A DNA stretch of 64,000 nucleotides from Deltaproteobacteria bacterium (lineage in GTDB: Bacteria; Desulfobacterota; Binatia; UBA9968; JAJDTQ01): assembly GCA_028818775.1 (NCBI GenBank), contig JAPPNE010000101.1, positions 1 through 64,000 of the forward strand, in the 5' to 3' direction. The notes beneath the pieces were generated by a model, which worked only from the letters and a program-made list of their open reading frames with translations, did no database searches and was not told the origin of the DNA. The position numbers and the translations under genes were made by a program. Below are positions 9,307 to 19,981 of this stretch, one piece after another; the first letter of the stretch is position 1; each line of letters begins with the position of its first letter.

Positions 9307-10380
9307 ATGGTCCTCGTACTCAAGAATGAACAACTGGAAGACTTGGTGCCCATGGCGGAGGAGATCGACGCCATCGAGCAGGCCTATCGGGAGATGGGCG
9401 AGGGCGCCGCGGTCAATTCGCCCCGCGCCCGGATCCGGGTGCAGGCTCCGGGCAAGAAGCCCGGCTTCCAGTACTACTTCAACAACATCATGGGCCTCGT
9501 CCCCGGCATGAAGTCCATGGGACTCCGCATCGACTCGACCTTTTCCGACGAAGAGGAGGTGGCCGGCACCAAGCGGCGGATTTACCCCGGGGACTACGTG
9601 GGCCTTGTCTTCCTGTTCGACATGGAAGACTGCTCGCTGCTGTCCATCATGGACGACCACTACATCTCCATCTTCCGCGTGGGCGCCACCAGCGGCGTGG
9701 CGGCCAAGCACCTGGCGCGCAAGGACGCCCGGATCATGGGTCTCGTGGGCTCGGGCGAGCAGGCCAAGACGCAGCTCCTGGCGACCTGCGCCGTGCGCCA
9801 GCTCGACAAGGTAAAGGTCTACAGCCCCACCCGGGCCAACCGCGAGCGGTTCGCCGAGGAGATGACCGAGAAGGCCGGAGTGGAGATCGTGCCGGTGCAC
9901 TCCGCGGAAGAAGCCGTGCGCGGCAGCGACATCGTCACCGCCGCCACCAACACGGTGGACCCCGTCATCAACGGCGAGTGGCTCGAGAAGGGCGCCTTCG
10001 TCAACAGCATCGTGGGCGGGGACAGCTACCTGTCGCGCCACGAGCTCGACGACGCCGTGATCGAGCGCGCCGGCCTGATCGTGGTGGGTTTTCGCAGGCA
10101 GGTCTTTCTCGACAAACAGGCCGAGCTGTTCCCCCGCATCGAGCGCGGCCTCATCAAGGAGGAGGACCTGCACGAGCTGGGCGAGCTCCTCACCGGCCAG
10201 TGCCGTGGCCGCGAAAACGACGACGAGATCATCGTCTTCAAGAACAACACCGGCATGGGCATCCAGTTCGCCGCCACGGCCCGCATCCTCTACGAAGCCG
10301 CCCGCAAGCAGGGCATCGGCACCGAGCTCCCCTCCGAACTGTTCATCACCGACCGCAAGGGGAAGACCTACTCGCCGTAG
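9307..10380 (+). CDS. Ornithine cyclodeaminase/mu-crystallin family protein
   Basis: NAD(P)-dependent enzyme family that includes ornithine cyclodeaminase, alanine dehydrogenase and ketimine reductases. The Rossmann motif GLVGSGEQAKTQL, the preceding RVGATSGVAAKHLAR segment and the later VNSIVGGDSYLSRHELDD block are typical. The length of 357 residues is usual. AAGGAAG lies just before the ATG at 9307, and the gene follows the molybdopterin oxidoreductase by 9 bases, so co-transcription is likely. Its 3' end overlaps the convergent membrane-protein gene by 13 bases. The true substrate, possibly an imine or amino acid linked to the two upstream redox enzymes, is unknown. Confidence 0.88.
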   Translation: MVLVLKNEQLEDLVPMAEEIDAIEQAYREMGEGAAVNSPRARIRVQAPGKKPGFQYYFNNIMGLVPGMKSMGLRIDSTFSDEEEVAGTKRRIYPGDYVGLVFLFDMEDCSLLSIMDDHYISIFRVGATSGVAAKHLARKDARIMGLVGSGEQAKTQLLATCAVRQLDKVKVYSPTRANRERFAEEMTEKAGVEIVPVHSAEEAVRGSDIVTAATNTVDPVINGEWLEKGAFVNSIVGGDSYLSRHELDDAVIERAGLIVVGFRRQVFLDKQAELFPRIERGLIKEEDLHELGELLTGQCRGRENDDEIIVFKNNTGMGIQFAATARILYEAARKQGIGTELPSELFITDRKGKTYSP

Positions 10381-10883
10381 GCGGTGTCCCGTCCTTTTGC
10401 CGTTCGTAGCCTGTCAACCCAGAATTCGGCGGTCCAGGCCAGCGTCGAGGCCGCCATTGCGATCAGCAGACTGGCGCGCCACCATACGAGCACCGCTTCC
10501 GCGTCCCACTCGGTGAAAAGCGGCGCCGCCTCTGCCCCGATCCAGAGTAACCCTAGAGGCAGCAATAGTCGATCGGGTTTGGTCGACGGCTCAAGGAATG
10601 TCGTGTCCCCTTCCCAGGACAGCAGCAGCACGACCGTGAGGAGGTAGTAGAACAGGATTCTGATGGGAGGCTCGGCAGACGGTTCACCGGACTCTACGAG
10701 TGCCAGTCCCGACTCCACAAGTGCCAGCCCTGACTCGATGATCCATCCCACTGCCAGCAGATAGGCCGCAAGATGGGCGGCGCGCTCCAATCGCAGAAAC
10801 TTTTCGTACCGATCCCGGTCGTAGGGCCTTTGTCGAAAACCCGCCATGAGCCGGAAGCACAACGGTTCTCCAGGAATAGACAC
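10368..10883 (-). CDS. Four-TM membrane protein with LVWWR motif, copy A
   Basis: Unrecognised 171-residue membrane protein. The start is GTG at 10883, supported by GAGGAGAG a few bases upstream; an internal ATG at 10847 has no such site. Hydrophobic segments lie at roughly 34-56, 73-90, 105-124 and 133-156. Just before the last segment is the motif VLVWWRASLL. The membrane protein at 13504-14001 has LLVWWRGAVI in the same place, so the two look paralogous. A heptapeptide ESGLALV is repeated in tandem after the first hydrophobic segment, encoded by 21-base repeats. It lies downstream of the degenerate Cys-rich peptide copy, mirroring the copy B cassette. Immunity, sensing or transport roles are possible guesses only. 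Confidence 0.65.
   Translation of the reverse strand: MSIPGEPLCFRLMAGFRQRPYDRDRYEKFLRLERAAHLAAYLLAVGWIIESGLALVESGLALVESGEPSAEPPIRILFYYLLTVVLLLSWEGDTTFLEPSTKPDRLLLPLGLLWIGAEAAPLFTEWDAEAVLVWWRASLLIAMAASTLAWTAEFWVDRLRTAKGRDTAYGE
10690..10731. repeat. 21-base tandem repeat inside membrane protein A
   Basis: Two 21-base units (10690-10710 and 10711-10731), each beginning GACTC and containing GTGCCAG, are followed by the start of a third. They encode the repeated heptapeptide ESGLALV on the minus strand. Copy B of the membrane protein has no such repeat, so it looks like a recent in-frame expansion. Confidence 0.8.
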
Positions 10884-10956
10884 CTTGACTCTCCTCGCAA
10901 GTCCGGGGCCATGCCCCAGGAGTCACACGCCCACGTCGAATGGTGAGCGTGAACCG

Positions 10957-11165
10957 CACCGGTGTTGTCGAACGAGCGGGAACAACTGCACGAACACCCG
11001 CACGAACCACATCCACGGTCGCCGCACCCACAGCCGCAACCATCAACCTCCAGGTCGAAGTCCTCGTGCTCGCGATCCAGGATCCATGGGATCACGACGG
11101 ACCGGTTTTCCTCAGATAGGCCAACATTGCTGTTTTGTACTTCTCCTTCCTGTACTTTGAAAGCG
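10957..11165 (-). pseudogene. Frameshifted, truncated duplicate of the Cys-rich peptide gene (copy A)
   Basis: This segment is a near-identical duplicate of 14448-14666, including the ribosome binding site region. Relative to the intact copy, the first ATG is altered and only the second ATG remains. One base is missing near 11112-11117, so translation from that ATG stops after 11 codons. The frame that encodes the acidic leader and CGCGCG core is therefore cut off from its start, except for a GTG at 11095 with no ribosome binding site. The core is also shorter than in copy B. After it the sequence diverges, and the glycine-rich C-terminal half is absent. The 133-codon open frame that can be drawn here runs through unrelated sequence and overlaps membrane protein A, so I read it as a decayed copy. 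Confidence 0.75.
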
Positions 11166-11168
11166 CCA

Positions 11169-13133
11169 TCAGTCCAGGGGTGCCGCCCGGCCGCCGAGAT
11201 GCTGGGCGAGGAACCGCTCGACCCGCTGAGCGTATTTGAGCTTGTTGACAGTTTTCCTTATGCTGTGCCGCTCGTCTTGAAAGACAAGGTAGTCTAGGGG
11301 AGCGCTTCCCTTCCGAAGTTCCACGAGGAGCCGGTCGAAGTGTTCTTTCGGGACTCTCGGATCCTTGGCGCCGTGGAAGAGCAACAGGGGACGTTGGATT
11401 CGCCGGGCGTGAGTGACCGGTGAATACTGCTTGAGCTCTTGATAATCGGCCTCATTGTGCGTGTCGCCGGCGAAATGGAGCCACCAAGCCAACCTCTTAG
11501 GGTGTGTGCGGAAACCGTCTACAAGCAGGGTCAGGTCGGTCGGCGCCATGGCGCTGACGCCCGCAGCAAACTTGTGGGGCGCCTGCGCCATGGCCATCAG
11601 CGCGGCGTAGCCGCCGTAGCTGTGACCAAACACCGCGATCCGCTCAGGATCGGCATGGCCCTCGGCGATGGCCCAGTCCACCGCATCGATCAGGTCCTCC
11701 TGCATCTTCCTGCCCAATTGCCGGCGTCCCCGTTCCAGGAAACTCTTGCCGAAACCCATGGAGCCCCTGAAGTTCACTCTCAGCACCGCGTAGCCGCGAT
11801 TGGCGAGAAATTGGGTCTCGGCGTCGAACCCCCACACGTCCAACAGCCACGGACCGCCGTGGATCTTGAGGACCATGGGGAGACGCTTGCCGTCGGTACC
11901 GTTCGGGACGGTCAGGAGGCCGCTGATCGCGAGTCCATCGCGCGCGTTGAAGCGCACGAGTCGTGTCTCCGAAAAAATGTTTGCGTATTTGCGCAGCCGG
12001 TGTTCGACCAGGATCTCCTTGGTTCCAGACGGCCGGTCCACGAGGTAGGTGACGGCCGCCTGTCGGTCGGTTTCGACAGCGACTATGAGGCGGGTGTGGT
12101 CCAGACTCCCGTTGGAGAATGCATGCAGAATCGGGGCCGAGCCCAAGAGGTCCTCAAAGTCCTGTTGCAACCGTTGGTCAAAGAAATGATAGGAAGGAAG
12201 TGGGTCAAAATACAGGACACCCAACGCGTCGTAACGTCGAATGTCCGTCCAAAGTTTCGCCACGTCCACGTCCGGTGCCTCGAAGACGACGCTCTGCTCC
12301 CCCGTGTCTACGTCAAGCTCAATGACCGCAGCCGTGTCCCTGCCAGCGTTGGTCAGCACGCGTATCCAGGTGGCGTCTTCTGGGTTATTCTGGACAGGCA
12401 CCAGCTTGTCCCTGAACGTTCCGGTCAGCAGCGTCTTCCAATTGGCGTCCCCGCGGGCCGCCTGGAGTTTCCAGGCGCCGTCTGTGGTTTCCTGCACCCG
12501 TGCCACGACCTTGCCGCTTCGACTAACCAACCAATACGTTGTGTCTCCTTGATTTGTCGCCCGCAGGTCGTAGTCGCCGGTGTTGATATCGACTTCGTAA
12601 AGGTCGTATACGTTGTTCCGTCGGCGGTCCATCCGCACCAATACGGATCCGGGTTTGTCCAGCAACGTCAAATACCAATCAACATTGACGCCAGCGAACG
12701 GCGTGAGATCACGACCAGCATCCTGTGGCGAAAATGTATCGACCACGAACAGGTGTATCCTGAAGGGTATGTCCACGAGACGTCGCAAAAACACGTGCCT
12801 GCTGTCTAGCGCCCAGTGGAACCCGACAACGTGTTTGAGCATGTGCATGACGTAAGTATGGCCGCTACCGATCACCCGGATGTGTAGCTTGGTTTCGCCT
12901 TCGATGCGTTCAAACCACGCCAGCCGTTCTCCGTCGGGAGACAATTGGTGCCCCCAGCGCTGGACATGGTAAGTGTAGAACTCTTCGGCGGAAACGAGTC
13001 TGGGGAGTGGGGCGGCGCGAAGGGACGAATGGGTGGGCATCTCTGCAGCAGTGCCGCCGTGGCCGGAGAGTGTGAGAAGCAGAAAAATCATATAGGGAAG
13101 ACGAAAAACGTGTTTCGTGACTACCGACGTCAT
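11169..13133 (-). CDS. Secreted S9 family (prolyl oligopeptidase-like) serine peptidase
   Basis: An N-terminal signal peptide (hydrophobic core LPYMIFLLLTLSG, probable cleavage after GTAA) is followed by a beta-propeller-like region and a C-terminal alpha/beta-hydrolase domain. The nucleophile is S505 in GHSYGGY. The other triad residues are most likely D591 (KDPRVP) and H623 (DERHS). At 654 residues it matches the acylaminoacyl-peptidase/dipeptidyl-peptidase branch of S9. GGAGG precedes the ATG at good spacing. It lies between the two Cys-rich peptide/membrane protein cassettes, and its stop codon is 4 bases from the copy A duplicate. S9 enzymes act on short peptides or process ribosomal-peptide precursors in some pathways. 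A role in trimming the neighbouring peptide is attractive but inferred. Confidence 0.88.
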   Translation of the reverse strand: MTSVVTKHVFRLPYMIFLLLTLSGHGGTAAEMPTHSSLRAAPLPRLVSAEEFYTYHVQRWGHQLSPDGERLAWFERIEGETKLHIRVIGSGHTYVMHMLKHVVGFHWALDSRHVFLRRLVDIPFRIHLFVVDTFSPQDAGRDLTPFAGVNVDWYLTLLDKPGSVLVRMDRRRNNVYDLYEVDINTGDYDLRATNQGDTTYWLVSRSGKVVARVQETTDGAWKLQAARGDANWKTLLTGTFRDKLVPVQNNPEDATWIRVLTNAGRDTAAVIELDVDTGEQSVVFEAPDVDVAKLWTDIRRYDALGVLYFDPLPSYHFFDQRLQQDFEDLLGSAPILHAFSNGSLDHTRLIVAVETDRQAAVTYLVDRPSGTKEILVEHRLRKYANIFSETRLVRFNARDGLAISGLLTVPNGTDGKRLPMVLKIHGGPWLLDVWGFDAETQFLANRGYAVLRVNFRGSMGFGKSFLERGRRQLGRKMQEDLIDAVDWAIAEGHADPERIAVFGHSYGGYAALMAMAQAPHKFAAGVSAMAPTDLTLLVDGFRTHPKRLAWWLHFAGDTHNEADYQELKQYSPVTHARRIQRPLLLFHGAKDPRVPKEHFDRLLVELRKGSAPLDYLVFQDERHSIRKTVNKLKYAQRVERFLAQHLGGRAAPLD

Positions 13134-13503
13134 CTCGGTACCTCCGTCGATCGCACCATTGTCAATCGAGGCTATTCAATGACAATTTTAAGGATGAAAC
13201 CGCAATTTTCTTTGCCGTAAAACAGATTGGAGTGTGCCGCACGCGGAGAGGCATCAAACCCGAGATGCCGGAGTTGGCTGCGTAGTCTGGTGTCCGCTTG
13301 ACGGAGACGAGCGGTGAGCCTCCCTTATGTGACCGCGATTCGTCCCACGTGGCGGGGCGGCGTGACACAGATCCCTCAGGCAACCCTGATCTGCGGTCCG
13401 GCGGGTACGAAGTAGCCGTCACGGCGGAACATGTGGATTCAGCGGCAGCACTGCACTTCACCATCAACAGGGCCACCTCAAAGATTCCTCTTGTCTCAGA
13501 CCG
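13134..13503. other. 370-base stretch without a convincing gene
   Basis: Upstream of the S9 peptidase gene. The only notable structure is a 7-bp inverted repeat ATTGTCA (13158-13164) / TGACAAT (13180-13186) in an AT-rich patch 25-50 bases before the peptidase start, a possible operator or promoter. The reading frames here show no domain and no plausible ribosome binding site. Confidence 0.5.
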
Positions 13504-14001
13504 TCATCGTCTGGGCAAAACGGTCTCGGGTTTGGAGTGAATGGCGTAGATAAATTTTTCCACCACGTAGAGAAGTAACCAACCGGAGAACAAGACAATA
13601 ACAGCACCGCGCCACCAGACCAGCAGGTTCCCGAGGCGCCAGTCATTAACGAATGTTGCGGTTTCGGCCACCAATAGCAGGATCGTCAATGCGGATACGC
13701 TCAGTACAACCGAGAGGGAAAGGCTTACGAGATTCGTGTTTGCGTCCGATCTGACCGTAGGGGGCATTTTGGCCAGCGAACTGAGAACCACAAACATGAC
13801 TAGCGCCGGGAGTAAAACCCGGAACGGGGCGTAGTCGAAAACCTGCCCTTTGTAACCGACGTACCAAGCAGACCACAACATCACGAAGACAGATGTAAAG
13901 AGAGTTGTGCGGTACGTTGTAACTATAACAACCCGCAATTTGTTAAGGGCCTCTTCATCATCGGGTATTCGTCGTAAGGCCGGTATAATCCTGAGTTTCA
14001 T
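13504..14001 (-). CDS. Four-TM membrane protein with LVWWR motif, copy B
   Basis: Unrecognised 165-residue membrane protein starting at ATG 14001. Hydrophobic segments lie at about 32-50, 60-80, 90-112 and 128-150. The LLVWWRGAVI motif before the last segment matches copy A at 10368-10883, and both proteins have a charged N-terminal cytoplasmic stretch and similar length. A polar N-terminus (RRIPDDEEALNKLR) precedes the first segment. It lies 132 bases downstream of the intact Cys-rich peptide gene, with a strong hairpin between them. The position suggests that it is co-expressed at a lower level than the peptide, as for an immunity or export protein, but no family is recognised. Confidence 0.7.
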   Translation of the reverse strand: MKLRIIPALRRIPDDEEALNKLRVVIVTTYRTTLFTSVFVMLWSAWYVGYKGQVFDYAPFRVLLPALVMFVVLSSLAKMPPTVRSDANTNLVSLSLSVVLSVSALTILLLVAETATFVNDWRLGNLLVWWRGAVIVLFSGWLLLYVVEKFIYAIHSKPETVLPRR

Positions 14002-14087
14002 CGTTGTGTCTCGTTTCGTTACATGACGTGAAAAGGTAGTGCAATCTCTGTCATCGTAGTAGTGAAGGGGTCATCAGTGGGTAGGGG

Positions 14088-14125
14088 TTGGAAACAGCGT
14101 CATAAGCGGTTGACGCTGTTTCCAA
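14088..14125 (-). terminator. 15-bp perfect hairpin after the Cys-rich peptide gene
   Basis: TTGGAAACAGCGTCA at 14088-14102 pairs perfectly with TGACGCTGTTTCCAA at 14111-14125, leaving an 8-base loop. It starts 8 bases after the peptide stop codon on the minus strand and precedes the membrane protein gene. There is no clear T-run after it, so it may be a partial terminator or an mRNA-stabilising stem. Such stems often sit between a precursor peptide gene and the lower-expressed genes that follow it. Confidence 0.7.
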
Positions 14126-14133
14126 AGGTGAGG

Positions 14134-14634
14134 TCAGTCGACTAACCCATTGGCAATGTCAGATCCGACCTCCTTGCAATCTTCGTTGGTCATGGCGGTG
14201 GCCACAACTCCGGTGGTTGCGGTGGCAATGGCGCCAATTGCAGCGCCGATGGCCGCTCCGGGACCCGTAACTGATCCAGCGAGGGCTCCACCGATGGCGC
14301 CAGAAATACCGCCGACCGTGGAAGCCTCCTGCAGCGCTGCTGCGCACTCGTCCAAGGCTGACGGCTCTTCGTCGCGACCATCGCTAGCCGATGCGCTGGC
14401 ATCGTCGTCGCCCGACGACCCGTGTTCGCCGGTATCATCTCCATTGGCACCGGTGCTGTCGCACGAGCACGAACAACTGCACGACGTGCACGAACACCCG
14501 CACGAACCACATCCACCGTCGCCGCACCCACAGCCACAACCATCAACCTCCAGGTCGAAGTCCTCGTGCTCGAGATCCAGGATCCATGGGATCACGACGG
14601 ACCGGTTTTCCTCTGAATAAGCCAACATTTCCAT
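14134..14634 (-). CDS. Cys/Gly/Ser-rich peptide with acidic leader and glycine-zipper tail (candidate RiPP/bacteriocin precursor)
   Basis: 166 residues, unrecognised. Residues 1-32 are an acidic leader with ten Asp/Glu (NRSVVIPWILDLEHEDFDLE). Residues 33-58 contain 11 cysteines in 26 residues, almost all alternating with Gly or Ser (C33, 35, 37, 42, 45, 47, 49, 52, 54, 56, 58). Residues 60-96 are an Asp/Ser-rich linker. Residues 107-148 are a hydrophobic Gly/Ala-rich segment of glycine-zipper type, and two further cysteines are at 97 and 153. AGGAAGGAGGAG precedes the ATG. The Cys/Ser/Gly core resembles azole-forming precursor cores and the tail resembles class II bacteriocins, but no YcaO, LanM or radical SAM gene is nearby. 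A metal-binding protein is the main alternative. A decayed second copy lies at 10957-11165. Confidence 0.72.
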   Translation of the reverse strand: MEMLAYSEENRSVVIPWILDLEHEDFDLEVDGCGCGCGDGGCGSCGCSCTSCSCSCSCDSTGANGDDTGEHGSSGDDDASASASDGRDEEPSALDECAAALQEASTVGGISGAIGGALAGSVTGPGAAIGAAIGAIATATTGVVATAMTNEDCKEVGSDIANGLVD

Positions 14635-14684
14635 TTTGTACTCCTCCTTCCTGTATTTTGAAAGCGGACGGAACCGCCCTCACA

Positions 14685-14690
14685 AGTATA
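14685..14690 (-). promoter_or_regulatory. Possible -10 box for the Cys-rich peptide gene
   Basis: Read on the minus strand, TATACT (5 of 6 to TATAAT) lies 51 bases before the peptide start codon. No good -35 hexamer is visible at 16-18 bases, so an activator may be needed. The duplicated copy A shares only the last 20-30 bases before the gene and lacks this box. Confidence 0.3.
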
Positions 14691-14774: not shown

Positions 14775-16061
14775 TCAGCCCGCCTTCACCGGCCTCCTCA
14801 CCAGCAGCGTCAGCCCCGCGCACAGAACCTGTACTCCGATGAACAGGACCAGCGACAGGTCGTAGTTGCCGGTGTAGTCGTAGAGGTAGCCGAAGAACGG
14901 GGCGCCGATGGCGGCGCAGAGCAGGAGGATGGGGAGGCTGAGGCCGCGGACGGTGCCGAGGGAGATGCGCCCGAAGTAGTTGGCCCACATGACTTCCTGG
15001 AGCACGTGGGCGCCGCCGAGGCCGGAGCCGTAGAGGAAGAACGCGACGTACAGCCACAGGAGGCCGCCGGTGTTCATGGCCACCACCAGGCCCACGGCCT
15101 GGACCACGAACATGAGCGCGGTGGCCCGGCGCACGCTCACCCGCTCGCTGATGAAGCCCCACAGGAGGCCGGAGCCGAGTTGGGTGGCGGCCATGACCGT
15201 GGCCACGGACGCCGCCGCCACCATGGAGTGGCCCAGGTCCGAGATGTAGGCGAGGACGTGCAGGTTGAAGCCGGCGATGCCGATGTCGACGGTGCTGAAG
15301 ATGAAGGTGATAAGCCAGAACGTGGGGGTGTGAAGGGCCTCCTGGCGGGTCCAGGTGACGTCCTCGGGGGCCGGGCCAACGGGCCGGGAGGCGGTCCGGC
15401 CGCGCCTGTCCGGGGCCGGAGCCGCGGCATAGTCGGGATCGCCGTCGGGGCGCAGCCCCATGTCCTCGGGGCTCCGGCGCATCCACAGCGCCGCCGGGAT
15501 CAGGGCGAGGACGACCACAAGCCCGCCGAAGAGGATCCACACCGAACGCCAGCCGATGACCGTCAGCAGGTAGGCGACCGCGAGCGCGATGGTGGTCTTG
15601 GAAACGCCTTGGCCCACGTGGGCGATGGCCAGCGCCCGTCCGCGCCGGCGTATGAACCAGCGGGAGATGGCGACGTTGACCACGAAGTAGCAGACGAAAG
15701 CGTGGCCGATGGACACCAGGGCGACGCGTACGGCCGCGAACTCCCAGAAGTTCCGGGCGTAGCCCAGCAGCACGAAACCCGCCACCGAGATGATCGAGCC
15801 GATGACCATGAGCCGGCGCGCGCCGTGGCGGTCCAGCAGCGAGCCGATCCAGGGCGTGACCCCGGCGTAGGCTACCAGCTCGACGGAGCGCATCAGCGAG
15901 AACGTGCCCCGGGAGACCCCCATCTCGGCGGTAATGGCCTTGAGCATGACGCCCAGGGTGCTGGAGAGATAGAACGCGCACGCCACCTGCACGAGAAAAC
16001 CGGTGGCGACGATGTACCAGCCGTAGAAGATCCTGGGTCTTGCCGGTGTCTGCATGCTCAC
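14775..16061 (-). CDS. MFS transporter, OFA/monocarboxylate-like (fourth of a tandem array)
   Basis: A 428-residue, twelve-TM major facilitator protein. The opening FYGWYIVATGFLVQVACAF, the SSTLGVMLKAITAE segment and the loop motif DRHGARRLM (motif A region) are shared with the two paralogues at 16058-17371 and 18683-19981. A charged central loop (RRSPEDMGLRPDGDP) divides the halves, as in those paralogues. GTG at 16061 overlaps the upstream stop codon by four bases (GTGA), so translation is probably coupled. The family carries monocarboxylates such as oxalate/formate; the substrate here is unknown. Confidence 0.85.
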   Translation of the reverse strand: MSMQTPARPRIFYGWYIVATGFLVQVACAFYLSSTLGVMLKAITAEMGVSRGTFSLMRSVELVAYAGVTPWIGSLLDRHGARRLMVIGSIISVAGFVLLGYARNFWEFAAVRVALVSIGHAFVCYFVVNVAISRWFIRRRGRALAIAHVGQGVSKTTIALAVAYLLTVIGWRSVWILFGGLVVVLALIPAALWMRRSPEDMGLRPDGDPDYAAAPAPDRRGRTASRPVGPAPEDVTWTRQEALHTPTFWLITFIFSTVDIGIAGFNLHVLAYISDLGHSMVAAASVATVMAATQLGSGLLWGFISERVSVRRATALMFVVQAVGLVVAMNTGGLLWLYVAFFLYGSGLGGAHVLQEVMWANYFGRISLGTVRGLSLPILLLCAAIGAPFFGYLYDYTGNYDLSLVLFIGVQVLCAGLTLLVRRPVKAG

Positions 16062-17371
16062 GCCGCCGCTTCGGCCCCGGCCGGCGGCCGCGGCCGCCTT
16101 ATCGTCAGCGTCAACATGGACGAGACCAGCAGCATGCCGATGAAAATATAGAAGGAGATCGTGTAGGACCCGGTGTAGTCATTCACGAAACCGAAGAACG
16201 GCGGACCGCAGACGCCGCACAGCAGGACGATCTGCAGGGCGGCGCCGCGCACCGTGCCCAGCGAGACCCGGCCAAAGTAGTTGGCCCACATGACCTCCTC
16301 CAGCACTTGCGCGCCGCCCAGCCCGAGTCCGTAGAAGAAGAACCCGAGGTAGATCGTGGAGAGGTCCTGCGCGTTCGCCGCCACGTACAGCCCAGCGGCC
16401 TCCACCAGGAACAGGAACGAGACGACTTTGCGGACGGTGACGCGCTCGCCGACGAAGCCCCACAGCAACCCGGAGGCCGCCTGGGTGCCGGCGATGACGG
16501 TCATGGTCAAGGCGGCCTGAAAGCCGCCGTATCCCAGGTCCGAGACGTAGGAGACGACGTGGAGGTTGAGGCCGGTGATGCCGATGTCCACCATGCCGAA
16601 TGCGACGATGATCAGCCAGAAGGTGGACGTGCGCCGCACCTCGTGCCGCGTCCAGCGGACTTCGGGTTCCGGCTCATTCCCGGTACCCGCCGTCCATCCC
16701 TGCGCGCCGCCCGCGGTCCCCATCGGCTCGCGGACGGGGGCGCCGTCCGGATGAAGGCCCATGTCCTCCGGGCTCCGGCGCATGAAGATCGCCACCGGGA
16801 TGACCGCGAGCAATACCACGAGCCCGCCGAACAGGGTCCACACCTGGCGCCAGGCGATGAACGTCAGCAACCAGCCCACCACCGCCGAGATGGCGATCTT
16901 GGCGATGCCGTGCCCCAGATGGGAAATGGCCAGGGCGCGCCCGCGCATCCGCACGAACCACCGGGCCACCGTGACGTTCACCACGAAGTAGCATACCAGT
17001 GCGTGGCCCACGGCCATCAGCGTCATGCGCACGGATGCGAACTGCGTGAAGGAAGCCACCTGCCCCAGCAGCAGGAATCCGATGGCCGAGAGGACGGCGC
17101 CGGTGACCATCATGCGCCGCGGTCCGTATTGGTCCAGCTTGGCCCCGATCCAGGGCGCCATGACCGCGTACAGGAGGTGTTCGCCCGAGCGCAGGAGCGA
17201 GAAAATGCCCCGGGAGACACCGAGATCGGTGGTGATGGGCTTCAGGAAGACGCTGAGGGTGCTGGAGAGGAAGAAAGCGCAGGAGATATTGGCCAGGAAA
17301 CCGGCGGCGACGATGTACCAGCCATAGAAGAGGCGCGGTTTCCCGCCGGGATAGGTGGAATCAGAGGTCAC
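16058..17371 (-). CDS. MFS transporter, OFA/monocarboxylate-like (third of a tandem array)
   Basis: A 437-residue twelve-TM major facilitator protein, closely related to both the gene after it and 18683-19981. It shares FYGWYIVAAGFLANISCAF, SSTLSVFLKPITTDLGVSRG, DQYGPRRMM and the central RRSPEDMGLHPDG loop. The start is GTG at 17371; CGGAGAGA lies about 12 bases upstream. It follows the 17420-18679 transporter by 48 bases and overlaps the next by four. The strong likeness to its neighbours suggests tandem duplication followed by substrate divergence. Confidence 0.85.
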   Translation of the reverse strand: MTSDSTYPGGKPRLFYGWYIVAAGFLANISCAFFLSSTLSVFLKPITTDLGVSRGIFSLLRSGEHLLYAVMAPWIGAKLDQYGPRRMMVTGAVLSAIGFLLLGQVASFTQFASVRMTLMAVGHALVCYFVVNVTVARWFVRMRGRALAISHLGHGIAKIAISAVVGWLLTFIAWRQVWTLFGGLVVLLAVIPVAIFMRRSPEDMGLHPDGAPVREPMGTAGGAQGWTAGTGNEPEPEVRWTRHEVRRTSTFWLIIVAFGMVDIGITGLNLHVVSYVSDLGYGGFQAALTMTVIAGTQAASGLLWGFVGERVTVRKVVSFLFLVEAAGLYVAANAQDLSTIYLGFFFYGLGLGGAQVLEEVMWANYFGRVSLGTVRGAALQIVLLCGVCGPPFFGFVNDYTGSYTISFYIFIGMLLVSSMLTLTIRRPRPPAGAEAAA

Positions 17372-17419
17372 GGTGCATGCATCTCTCCGAGAGTTTACTA
17401 GGCAATCGCCTCCCCGGAG

Positions 17420-18679
17420 TCAATCATTTCCCTTCGCCACGGCGGGGTCGTCCGGCCACAGCCGCCGGTCGAAGCGGCGCATCCAGTCGAGGCCCGTCAC
17501 CCAGACCGCCACCACCGAGGAGATCAGGAGCCCGTTGGCGACGTTGAACGAGGCAACGTAGTCGCCCGTGAGATCATGCAGCGCACCGCCCAGCCAGGCC
17601 CCGGCGGCCCCGCCGAAGCCCACGCTGGCGACGGAAAGGCCGAAGATGGTTCCGAAGCCCCGGCCGGAGAAGATGTCGGCGGTGATGGCGGAGAGGATCA
17701 CGGCGCGGGAACCGAAGGCGATGCCGAAGCCGCCGACGTAGACGTAAAGCAGCCACGGGTGCGCCGTGTCCGTGGCCAGGGTGAGGGCGGTGACGCCGAC
17801 GGACGCGCAAACGATGTTGAGGGTGTAGGCCGCCCGCTTGGTGAAGGCGTCCGCGATGTAACCGAAGGTCACGCGGCCGGCCGCGCTGACGAACGCCATC
17901 ACGCCGAAGACGCCGGCGGCCCAGATGTGACCGTAGCCGATGTCCACCACGTGGGCGACCTGATGGGTAATGACCAGCACGGTGCCGATGGACCCCAGCA
18001 AACGCGAGACGAAAAGGCTCCAGAACTGGATGCTCCTCAACGCCAGGCGCACCGACCACTGGCCGGCCGACGCGCCGCCGCTTCCCGTCGCCGCCCGCGC
18101 ATCGTGCGGGCTCGGGCGGTAGGTGCTCCACACGAGCGGCACCACGGCGATGAGGATGGCCGCCGCCAGCACCTGGAACACCCGCGGCCAGCCCCAAAGG
18201 GAGATCAGCCACTGACTGAGGGGAGAGAGGATGAGGGTTCCCACTCCCACCGCGCCGTAGACGATGCCCAGCACCAGCCCGCGGCGGGTGGGGAACCACT
18301 CCGACACCACCACTACGTGGGGCACCACGCCGCTGGCCGCGAATCCCAGCGACATCACCACCCCGAAATAGAGATACAGCTCCCACGCGGTGCTCACTTG
18401 GCTACAGAGGACCAGGCCGGCCGCCAGGAGGACGCCCCCGGCGGCCACGACGCGGCGCGGTCCCAGGCGGTCCGTGAGCCGTCCGATGAACGGCGACACC
18501 AGGGCATCCATGATGAGGCTCGCGGACTGAAGCCCGGCGGTGACGCCCCGGCTCCACTGAAACGTATCGAGAAGGGCCACGAAGAAGACGGCGAAGGACG
18601 TGTGCAGGCCGCGGACGAAGCCGAAAGTCAACGAGGCGGCGCCGGCGACGATCCACGATGGGTCGGGTTTTCGTAGCAT
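17420..18679 (-). CDS. MFS transporter, divergent member of the tandem array
   Basis: A 419-residue twelve-TM major facilitator protein. It lacks the FYGWYIV opening of its three neighbours and begins instead with PDPSWIVAGAASLTFGFVRG. It keeps the family loop motif DRLGPRRVV and lacks their central SPEDMG loop. It may thus descend from a different branch and have been inserted into the array. Its ATG lies 3 bases after the upstream transporter's stop codon, so the genes are almost certainly one transcript. The substrate is unknown. Confidence 0.85.
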   Translation of the reverse strand: MLRKPDPSWIVAGAASLTFGFVRGLHTSFAVFFVALLDTFQWSRGVTAGLQSASLIMDALVSPFIGRLTDRLGPRRVVAAGGVLLAAGLVLCSQVSTAWELYLYFGVVMSLGFAASGVVPHVVVVSEWFPTRRGLVLGIVYGAVGVGTLILSPLSQWLISLWGWPRVFQVLAAAILIAVVPLVWSTYRPSPHDARAATGSGGASAGQWSVRLALRSIQFWSLFVSRLLGSIGTVLVITHQVAHVVDIGYGHIWAAGVFGVMAFVSAAGRVTFGYIADAFTKRAAYTLNIVCASVGVTALTLATDTAHPWLLYVYVGGFGIAFGSRAVILSAITADIFSGRGFGTIFGLSVASVGFGGAAGAWLGGALHDLTGDYVASFNVANGLLISSVVAVWVTGLDWMRRFDRRLWPDDPAVAKGND

Positions 18680-18682
18680 GAA

Positions 18683-19981
18683 CTATCTCACGGACTCCCG
18701 CCGTCCCGGGTGGTCCGGCGGGGTCCCCGGCTTCCGCGGATGGCGGAGCAGCAGGACCAGGAACGCCGAGACCAGCAGGCCGGCGATGAAGGAGCTGAAA
18801 GACAGGAAGTAACTGCCGGTGTAGTCGTAGAAGAATCCGAAGAAGGGCGGGCCGGCGGTGGTGAACACGCGCGTGATCAGGAAGCCCAGTCCGCGCACCC
18901 GGCCCAGGGAGATGCGGCCGAAGTAGCTGGCCCACAGGAGCTCGCGGATCACCAGGCTTCCCCCCAGGCCGAATCCGTAGAGGAGGAACCCCAGGTACAC
19001 CGAGGTGATGCCCGACGCCGACAGCGCCAGGCCGAGTCCGCACGCCTGCACCGCGAACTGGGCGACGGCGGCCTTGCGCACGTCGATGCGGTCCGCGGTG
19101 AGGCCCCAGAAGAGCGTCGCGCCCATCTGCGTCAGGGCCATCATCCCCATGACCGTGGCGGCCACCTCGGGCGAGTAGCCGATGTCCGTGATGTAGGGAT
19201 AGACGTGGAGGTTCAGTCCGATGATGCCGACGCTGACGATGCCGAAGGAGAAGACCAACAGCCAGAAGGTGCTCGTGCGGACGGCTTCCTTGCGCGTCCA
19301 GGGGATGTCCACGGTGGGTGCCGGGAGGCTCTGCCGTTCCGGTGTCCGCCCGTGGGGAGGCTCGTAGGGGGCAAGGGCGCCGTCCGGCAGAAGCCCCATG
19401 TCCTCGGGACTGCGCCGGACCACCAGGAACGCCGGCAGCACCACCATGGCCCAGGTGAGGAGTCCGAACACGAGCCAGGTGTGGCGCCACCCCACCAGCG
19501 CGAAGAGCCACACGGCGAGGAGCGGCATGGTCGACTTGGCGATGCCGTTGCCGGTGTTGGCGATGGAGATGGCGCGCCCGCGCTTGCGCACGAACCATCG
19601 CGAGATCATCACATTGACCACCATGTAGCTGATGAGGGTGTCGCCCATGGTGACCGGGAGCCAGCGCAAGACCATGAACTGCCAGAACTCCTGCACTTGG
19701 CTCAGCAGGACGAAGCCGGCGCCTCCCACCAGCGCGCCCGTGATGATGAGCCAGCGCGCGCCGTAACGGTCGATGAGGGGGCCCACCAGGGCGGCCACCA
19801 CCGAGGACAGCATGACCTCGCCGCTGCGGATGAAGGAGAAGACGCCCCGGGAGATACCGAACTCCGCGGTCAGGGGCTTGAGAAAAACGCTGAGGGTGCT
19901 GGAGAGGGCGAAGGACGAGCCCAGGTAGCAGATGAAGCCGACGCCGACGATGTACCAGCCGTAGAAGATCTTGCGCGTCAC
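18683..19981 (-). CDS. MFS transporter, OFA/monocarboxylate-like (first of a tandem array)
   Basis: A 432-residue twelve-TM major facilitator protein, promoter-proximal in the four-gene minus-strand array. It shares FYGWYIVGVGF, SSTLSVFLKPLTAEFGISRG, DRYGARWLI and the central RRSPEDMGLLPDG loop with the two OFA-like paralogues downstream. The start is GTG at 19981 with no strong ribosome binding site in view. Inverted repeats upstream (20022-20096) are candidates for operator sites. No catabolic enzyme genes lie in the array, so the cargo cannot be inferred from neighbours. Confidence 0.85.
   Translation of the reverse strand: MTRKIFYGWYIVGVGFICYLGSSFALSSTLSVFLKPLTAEFGISRGVFSFIRSGEVMLSSVVAALVGPLIDRYGARWLIITGALVGGAGFVLLSQVQEFWQFMVLRWLPVTMGDTLISYMVVNVMISRWFVRKRGRAISIANTGNGIAKSTMPLLAVWLFALVGWRHTWLVFGLLTWAMVVLPAFLVVRRSPEDMGLLPDGALAPYEPPHGRTPERQSLPAPTVDIPWTRKEAVRTSTFWLLVFSFGIVSVGIIGLNLHVYPYITDIGYSPEVAATVMGMMALTQMGATLFWGLTADRIDVRKAAVAQFAVQACGLGLALSASGITSVYLGFLLYGFGLGGSLVIRELLWASYFGRISLGRVRGLGFLITRVFTTAGPPFFGFFYDYTGSYFLSFSSFIAGLLVSAFLVLLLRHPRKPGTPPDHPGRRESVR

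Follow-up and report, generated by a model that had tools for sequence, protein, structure and literature searches.

A modular Cys-rich precursor family and its putative split MNIO and type I secretion pathway in a genus of Binatia

What is made from a Cys/Gly/Ser-rich peptide gene that lies on the minus strand next to a gene for a four-helix membrane protein, close to a second such pair and to an exported peptidase? The question is raised by positions 10368-14690 of the 64,000-nucleotide stretch of DNA analyzed here (the window), which comes from contig JAPPNE010000101.1 of a Deltaproteobacteria bacterium. A preliminary description, made from the letters alone, took the locus for a candidate ribosomally synthesized and post-translationally modified peptide (RiPP) or bacteriocin system whose chemistry, if it is a RiPP, might be encoded elsewhere or be novel. 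We found that the peptide belongs to a precursor family present throughout its genus, and that an MNIO enzyme, a partner protein and an exporter are indeed encoded on other contigs of the same genome. Judging from gene content and order, the family is very probably MNIO-modified and secreted by a type I system, with the genes of the pathway split over the genome.

The intact precursor of the window is a 166-aa open reading frame (ORF; 14134-14634, minus strand) with a strong Shine-Dalgarno sequence, AGGAAGGAGGAG, upstream, and consists of a leader, a CX-repeat tract, an acidic linker and a variable C-terminal domain, in that order. The leader (residues 1-32, SVVIPWILDLEHEDFDLEVDG; 14539-14634, minus strand) is hydrophilic, and the precursor has no Sec signal and no Pfam match to DUF2282. 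The tract that follows (residues 33-58; 14461-14538, minus strand) contains 11 Cys in CX repeats that lack EGKCG, and would be the substrate of the MNIO. Further downstream, the region from Cys97 to Cys153 (14176-14346, minus strand) is variable, hydrophobic and glycine-zipper-like, with weak Pfam Gly-zipper matches (E 0.009, below cut-off). Neither the peptide nor the two membrane proteins of the window received a Pfam or NCBIfam assignment. ORFs were called mechanically, and helix counts come from a hydropathy scan only.

Whole-genome searches with the leader, a check that the preliminary description had proposed, returned the family from all nine genomes of the genus (G000, the window's own, to G008), at two syntenic sites and a few other places and with variable cores. 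This recurrence puts the observation beyond chance. There were 20 matches, including two relics: the second copy in the window and a 27-codon fragment in G003 (L072, 1501-1584, at G003:C1:1007252), a leader remnant, MQLHSDSLQRGSIVVPWVLDPQNDLDL, that runs into a stop and marks another decayed precursor. Outside the genus, the leader was not found in any of the other 139 genomes of the class, and among 395 genomes drawn from the phylum the window's own match was the only one; viral contigs yielded no relatives. The consensus reads VAIPWxLDPxxDDLDLEIHGCGCGCG, or in looser form PWxLDxxxxDLDLE[IV][HD]GCGCGCG, and W17, L19, E29, G32 and the GCGCG motif are invariant across the 18 intact members. All 18 carry the CX tract, of composition (CG/CS/CA)n, directly after the leader. 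The nine genomes, most of them drafts, belong to one genus and are not independent samples, and therefore the linkage counts given below overstate the evidence.

What follows the tract divides the family. Five short members (L020 and L031-L034; 69-81 aa) end at the CX tract, and 13 long members run on through an acidic Ser/Gly linker to a variable domain. This domain has two Cys 48-64 residues apart in 10 of these 13; the other three are one cut by a contig end, with a single Cys visible (L025), one that looks truncated (the first of two in L024) and a 300-aa member from G003 with no Cys. The C-terminal domain is mostly hydrophobic and probably closed by a disulfide. Conservation is mosaic: four members at one site share 74-100% identity in the leader and CX tract and only 5-32% in the C-terminal part. 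At L024 (8668-9844, G007) two precursors stand in tandem, and the shortened C-terminus of the first resembles the start of that of the second.

A candidate for the missing chemistry was found outside the window. Eight of the nine genomes encode an MNIO (PF05114, DUF692) of a genus-specific clade (E 3.6e-65 or better), the exception being a genome that is 76% complete. Identity among these enzymes is 81-97% inside the genus and does not exceed 38% to other MNIOs found in the class. Among NCBIfam models they come nearest to BufB and HvfB, below the equivalog cut-offs of both (202.5 vs 310 bits and 188.5 vs 360 bits, respectively). Conservation extends to the MNIO motifs for iron ligands and catalysis: HGVGLS, SEHLAW, ENISY, LLDVEN, MHAAG, ADNH and LERDND each have a counterpart in 3bww, TglH or MbnB. 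At all nine MNIO loci the MNIO gene is followed by genes for a DUF2063-like partner protein of 244-289 aa and an HlyB-type ABC exporter (E 4.7e-160, subfamily score below cut-off). A type I HlyD (E 4e-98, above cut-off) is found in all nine genomes, as a single copy except in G003, whose two copies match its two MNIO loci.

One locus of G003, a complete genome, joins all of these parts in a contiguous operon. At L035 (57-10151) the order is precursor, MNIO, partner, HlyB, HlyD, TauD, SDR and S9 peptidase, and the other MNIO locus of that genome, L048, has MNIO, partner, HlyB, HlyD, TauD and SDR. L035 looks like a duplicate of the whole pathway, in which the 300-aa precursor, with a long Ala-rich C-terminus, adjoins a second MNIO. 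Elsewhere the pathway is divided. A site that we call hot spot B, with a GPP34-like gene on one side and a EutA-like gene on the other, holds precursors in G000, G001, G003, G005, G006 and G007, and in all of these except G003 an HlyD-TauD pair at this site follows the precursor or the precursor's 4TM gene. HlyD-TauD thus sits with the hot spot B precursor and away from the MNIO, so the parts lie at three places in the window's genome: C101 (the window), C25 (MNIO, partner and HlyB) and C36 (short precursor, HlyD and TauD). The co-occurrence of MNIO, partner and HlyB/HlyD, and their contiguity with a family member in G003, give genomic support to the earlier reading of the peptide as a RiPP precursor. 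The C39 region is absent from the G000 exporter, and weak and without a recognizable catalytic motif in the G003 exporter; leader removal, if any, would therefore fall to another protease. As a separate observation, a TauD/TfdA-type 2-oxoglutarate dioxygenase accompanies HlyD in all seven fully read loci (for example L020, 10756-11757, and L035, 2908-4128) and may add a second modification or be unrelated.

The small membrane proteins accompany some of the long precursors. A four-transmembrane (4TM) protein of 165 aa with four hydrophobic helices and the LVWWR motif (13504-14001, minus strand) completes the first cassette, as previously described, and is a candidate immunity protein for the intact precursor. 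It is 22% identical to the other 4TM protein of the window; both carry LVWWR before the last helix and are homologous, forming one hidden Markov model (HMM) family with five more members. All seven members of this family in the nine genomes lie beside a precursor, and none lies elsewhere. Within the xWWR motif, W and R do not vary across the family (the G003 member reads SWR), and the intact precursors next to 4TM genes have hydrophobic C-termini with two Cys. Immunity, which with export was one of the two roles first suggested for these proteins, is thus a plausible prediction, given that linkage and one case in which the 4TM gene was kept next to a precursor that had lost its C-terminal half. 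We also considered Sel1 proteins as dedicated immunity proteins for precursors ending in 'LGMDPVAExTGEHYDP'; all three such precursors adjoin a Sel1 gene, which is suggestive, yet Sel1 relatives are widespread without precursors, and we did not retain this idea.

The case of the retained 4TM gene is the second cassette of the window. We rejected the reading of two intact peptide cassettes because the second copy is a relic: of the duplication first described, one complete cassette and an intact second 4TM gene stand, and the second peptide gene does not. The DNA from 11122 to 10895 (minus strand) is 89% identical to the first copy over 220 bp, including the Shine-Dalgarno region. However, its start codon has changed from ATG to ACA, a 1-bp deletion shifts the frame within the leader, and two Cys codons are altered. 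Aligned to the intact orthologous module of G005 (L022), it gives two blocks, and the approximately 460 bp between them, encoding most of the C-terminal domain, have been deleted. The adjacent gene (10368-10883, minus strand) encodes an intact 171-aa 4TM protein with LVWWR that is 62% identical to the G005 4TM protein, with a dN/dS of 0.38 by a simple Nei-Gojobori count. An intact 4TM gene beside a deleted precursor looks like an orphan immunity gene, a candidate role with which these data are consistent and of which they are no proof.

Between the two modules lies an exported serine peptidase of the S9 (prolyl-oligopeptidase) family (11169-13133, minus strand; PF00326, E 9e-51), which the preliminary description had made part of the layout. 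An orthologue 75% identical to it stands beside the G004 precursor, and the peptidase of L035 is 51-53% identical. Counting as close relatives those with 50% identity or more across most of the protein, only G000, G004 and G003 (two copies) have any; three of the four are in precursor loci and the fourth is beside a Sel1 gene. Most precursor loci have no S9 peptidase, and its proposed part as a core maturation enzyme is unsupported; the enzyme is linked to the system and is not essential to it, and remains one candidate for leader removal. The fourth relative (L140, 8059-11172, G003) directly follows a Sel1-repeat gene with no precursor in sight; Sel1 and S9 genes may form a pair of their own.

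How might these parts work together? We favor a model in which a split RiPP pathway has one of its "cargo" sites in the window. The constant leader would be recognized by the DUF2063-like partner, and the MNIO, an iron enzyme, would oxidize Cys residues of the CX tract, probably to thiooxazole-type metal ligands, before the product left through the HlyB/HlyD type I system. Short members may be no more than metallophores. In long members a membrane-active bacteriocin domain would be delivered, against which the adjacent 4TM protein protects the producer, and in the second module of the window deletion of the toxin half would have left an orphan immunity gene. That the peptide is modified, by which chemistry, and that it is exported, toxic and countered by an immunity protein are all read here from sequence and gene order, and the 5-thiooxazole chemistry is extended to the CX tract by analogy with MNIO-PME1 enzymes. 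For long members being bacteriocins, with a metal-binding segment, a membrane-active domain and a guarding 4TM protein, we see the chances as evenly balanced; for the statement as a whole, a split MNIO and type I secretion RiPP with bacteriocin long members and 4TM immunity, we lean slightly in favor. A bolder version is possible but doubtful: that these are polymorphic bacteriocins in which an MNIO-built metallophore, itself ribosomally encoded, is joined to exchangeable membrane-active killing domains, every one of them paired with an immunity protein of its own and all served in trans by a shared MNIO and type I exporter, with the metallophore perhaps acting as a Trojan-horse uptake tag.

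Several results weigh against the favored model. The precursor and MNIO are unlinked in the window's genome, and three MNIO-bearing genomes have no precursor at the HlyD site. The DUF2063 match of the partner is weak and below cut-off (E 0.002-0.16), and when solved structures were searched with a profile of the partner, only chance matches and no homologue came up. No toxin fold was recognized in the C-terminal domain, for which the predicted models are poor; the AlphaFold model of the window peptide (pLDDT 49) was too poor for a fold search, as was that of the 4TM protein (pLDDT 52). Some long precursors have no 4TM gene, and co-divergence of the C-terminus with the 4TM protein was not significant (Mantel 73/720).

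The most serious alternative, less probable in our judgment but with a real chance of being right, is metal handling without antagonism, in which the product is an exported, MNIO-modified metallophore for copper or another soft metal, like captophorins and bufferins. The C-terminal domain would then anchor or organize the product, and the 4TM protein would assist in positioning it or taking it up, a part that DoxX may play in bufferin loci. The MNIO-PME products known so far are thiooxazole peptides that bind copper (PMC12668002, PMC12452194), the enzyme of this genus is nearest to BufB and HvfB, and the short members amount to leader and CX tract alone. However, the precursors carry no Sec signal and their loci hold genes of a type I secretion system. 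Beside the precursors we saw no gene for DoxX, a sigma factor or a metal regulator, and the 4TM family has no Pfam match to DoxX. The C-terminal halves, moreover, are far more variable than the rest, a degree of variation for which a housekeeping metal binder would have no need.

Two further alternatives dispense with MNIO chemistry on the CX tract. It is improbable that the family is an unmodified Cys-rich protein secreted by a type I system, such as an adhesin or a matrix or structural peptide, with the MNIO acting on something else and the G003 linkage incidental. Precursor and MNIO are unlinked in eight of nine genomes, a poly-CG/CS tract is a low-complexity sequence, and there are secreted proteins rich in disulfides; yet within the class the MNIO clade occurs over the same range as the leader family, the two genes are contiguous in G003, and HlyD-TauD alternates between precursor and MNIO loci. 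The last alternative is that the genome's YcaO cyclizes the Cys tract to thiazoles. Poly Cys-Gly/Ser tracts do resemble the cores of thiazole/oxazole-modified microcins (TOMMs) such as microcin B17 and heterocycloanthracin, and there is one YcaO in the genome (C97, E 1.6e-96). We rejected this chemistry for the CX family, as largely refuted and very improbable, because YcaO is missing from two near-complete genomes with intact precursors (G001, 99% complete, and G005, 97%) and has a locus of its own, its contig carrying a small precursor-like ORF and two bacteriocin-type ABC transporters.

The setting of the window locus recurs in other genomes. Hot spot A, bounded by MFS transporters on one side and by an ornithine-cyclodeaminase-like gene and a molybdopterin oxidoreductase on the other, is occupied in the window and in G002, G004, G005, G006 and G007, and probably in G008, where the contig ends. 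The ornithine-cyclodeaminase-like gene (9307-10380, plus strand) is a conserved flank, the same in the five definite cases outside the window; the first MFS gene (14775-16061, minus strand) is the other. In the window four tandem MFS transporter genes (14775-19981, minus strand) stand here, and they are conserved beside hot spot A elsewhere. In neutral terms, this is one family at a few fixed sites with exchangeable cargo.

MNIO RiPPs are an established and growing class. MNIO-PME1 enzymes form 5-thiooxazoles on Cys, the tested enzyme prefers Cys-Gly, and the products are tied to copper; for thiooxazoles an absorbance near 305 nm is reported (PMC12668002). A 2025 landscape paper found Sec signals on most MNIO substrates, with copper handling as the best-supported role of the products (PMC12452194); its main text does not mention HlyD, ABC transporters or type I secretion. 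In the library that we searched, no paper came up that combines MNIO with type I secretion, and a paper on the sponge symbiont Entotheonella does not mention MNIO RiPPs. The present family would add modular, HlyB/HlyD-exported precursors to the class, with scattered pathway genes that escape cluster-based mining, and gives chemists something concrete to pursue in a genus that is uncultured. Should the variable halves prove to kill, MNIO metallophores would be tied to bacterial competition, as a natural coupling of a ribosomal metal-binding tag to different effectors.

Among known systems, captophorins and bufferins (MNIO-PME1 thiooxazole metallophores such as BufA, fontiphorin and oxazolin; PMC12668002, PMC12452194) are similar in having an MNIO with a partner protein and a Cys-rich precursor with many Cys-Gly dyads, and in the BufB/HvfB affinity of the enzyme. 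They differ in that the genus MNIO falls under the BufB and HvfB cut-offs, the partner is only DUF2063-like where theirs is of the DUF2063 type, and the CX precursor starts with a leader and no Sec signal, contains CX repeats, would be exported by HlyB/HlyD and ends in a variable C-terminal domain that has a 4TM neighbor, in a pathway split over the genome. The putative MNIO precursors of the adjamnio-I group (122-293 aa, 8-21 Cys, in the order precursor, MNIO, PME-type 2; PMC12452194 Table 2) are compatible in length range, Cys number and gene order with the L035 locus and may overlap with our family, as compared by description only, but most genomes of the genus have their precursor and MNIO genes apart. 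The NHLP/YcaO (TOMM) locus of the window's genome (L019, G000:C97, 2410-12692), with two bacteriocin-type ABC transporters, a 91-aa ORF ending in ISAGLCCCW (NHLP-like by eye) and a YcaO gene that runs off the contig end, differs in precursor and exporters, and YcaO is absent from two CX-family genomes. Class II microcins, including the siderophore microcin MccE492 (PMC7472721, PMC8021565), show no sequence relation to the CX family that we could find, and their double-glycine leader is cut by C39, whereas the CX-family exporter has no recognizable C39 peptidase. In their working they are alike: a small secreted peptide, export by ABC and HlyD-type proteins, a hydrophobic membrane-active part and an immunity gene. 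Siderophore microcins have a metal-chelating moiety attached to them, whereas the CX family would encode its metal-binding part within the peptide itself, to be made by the MNIO.

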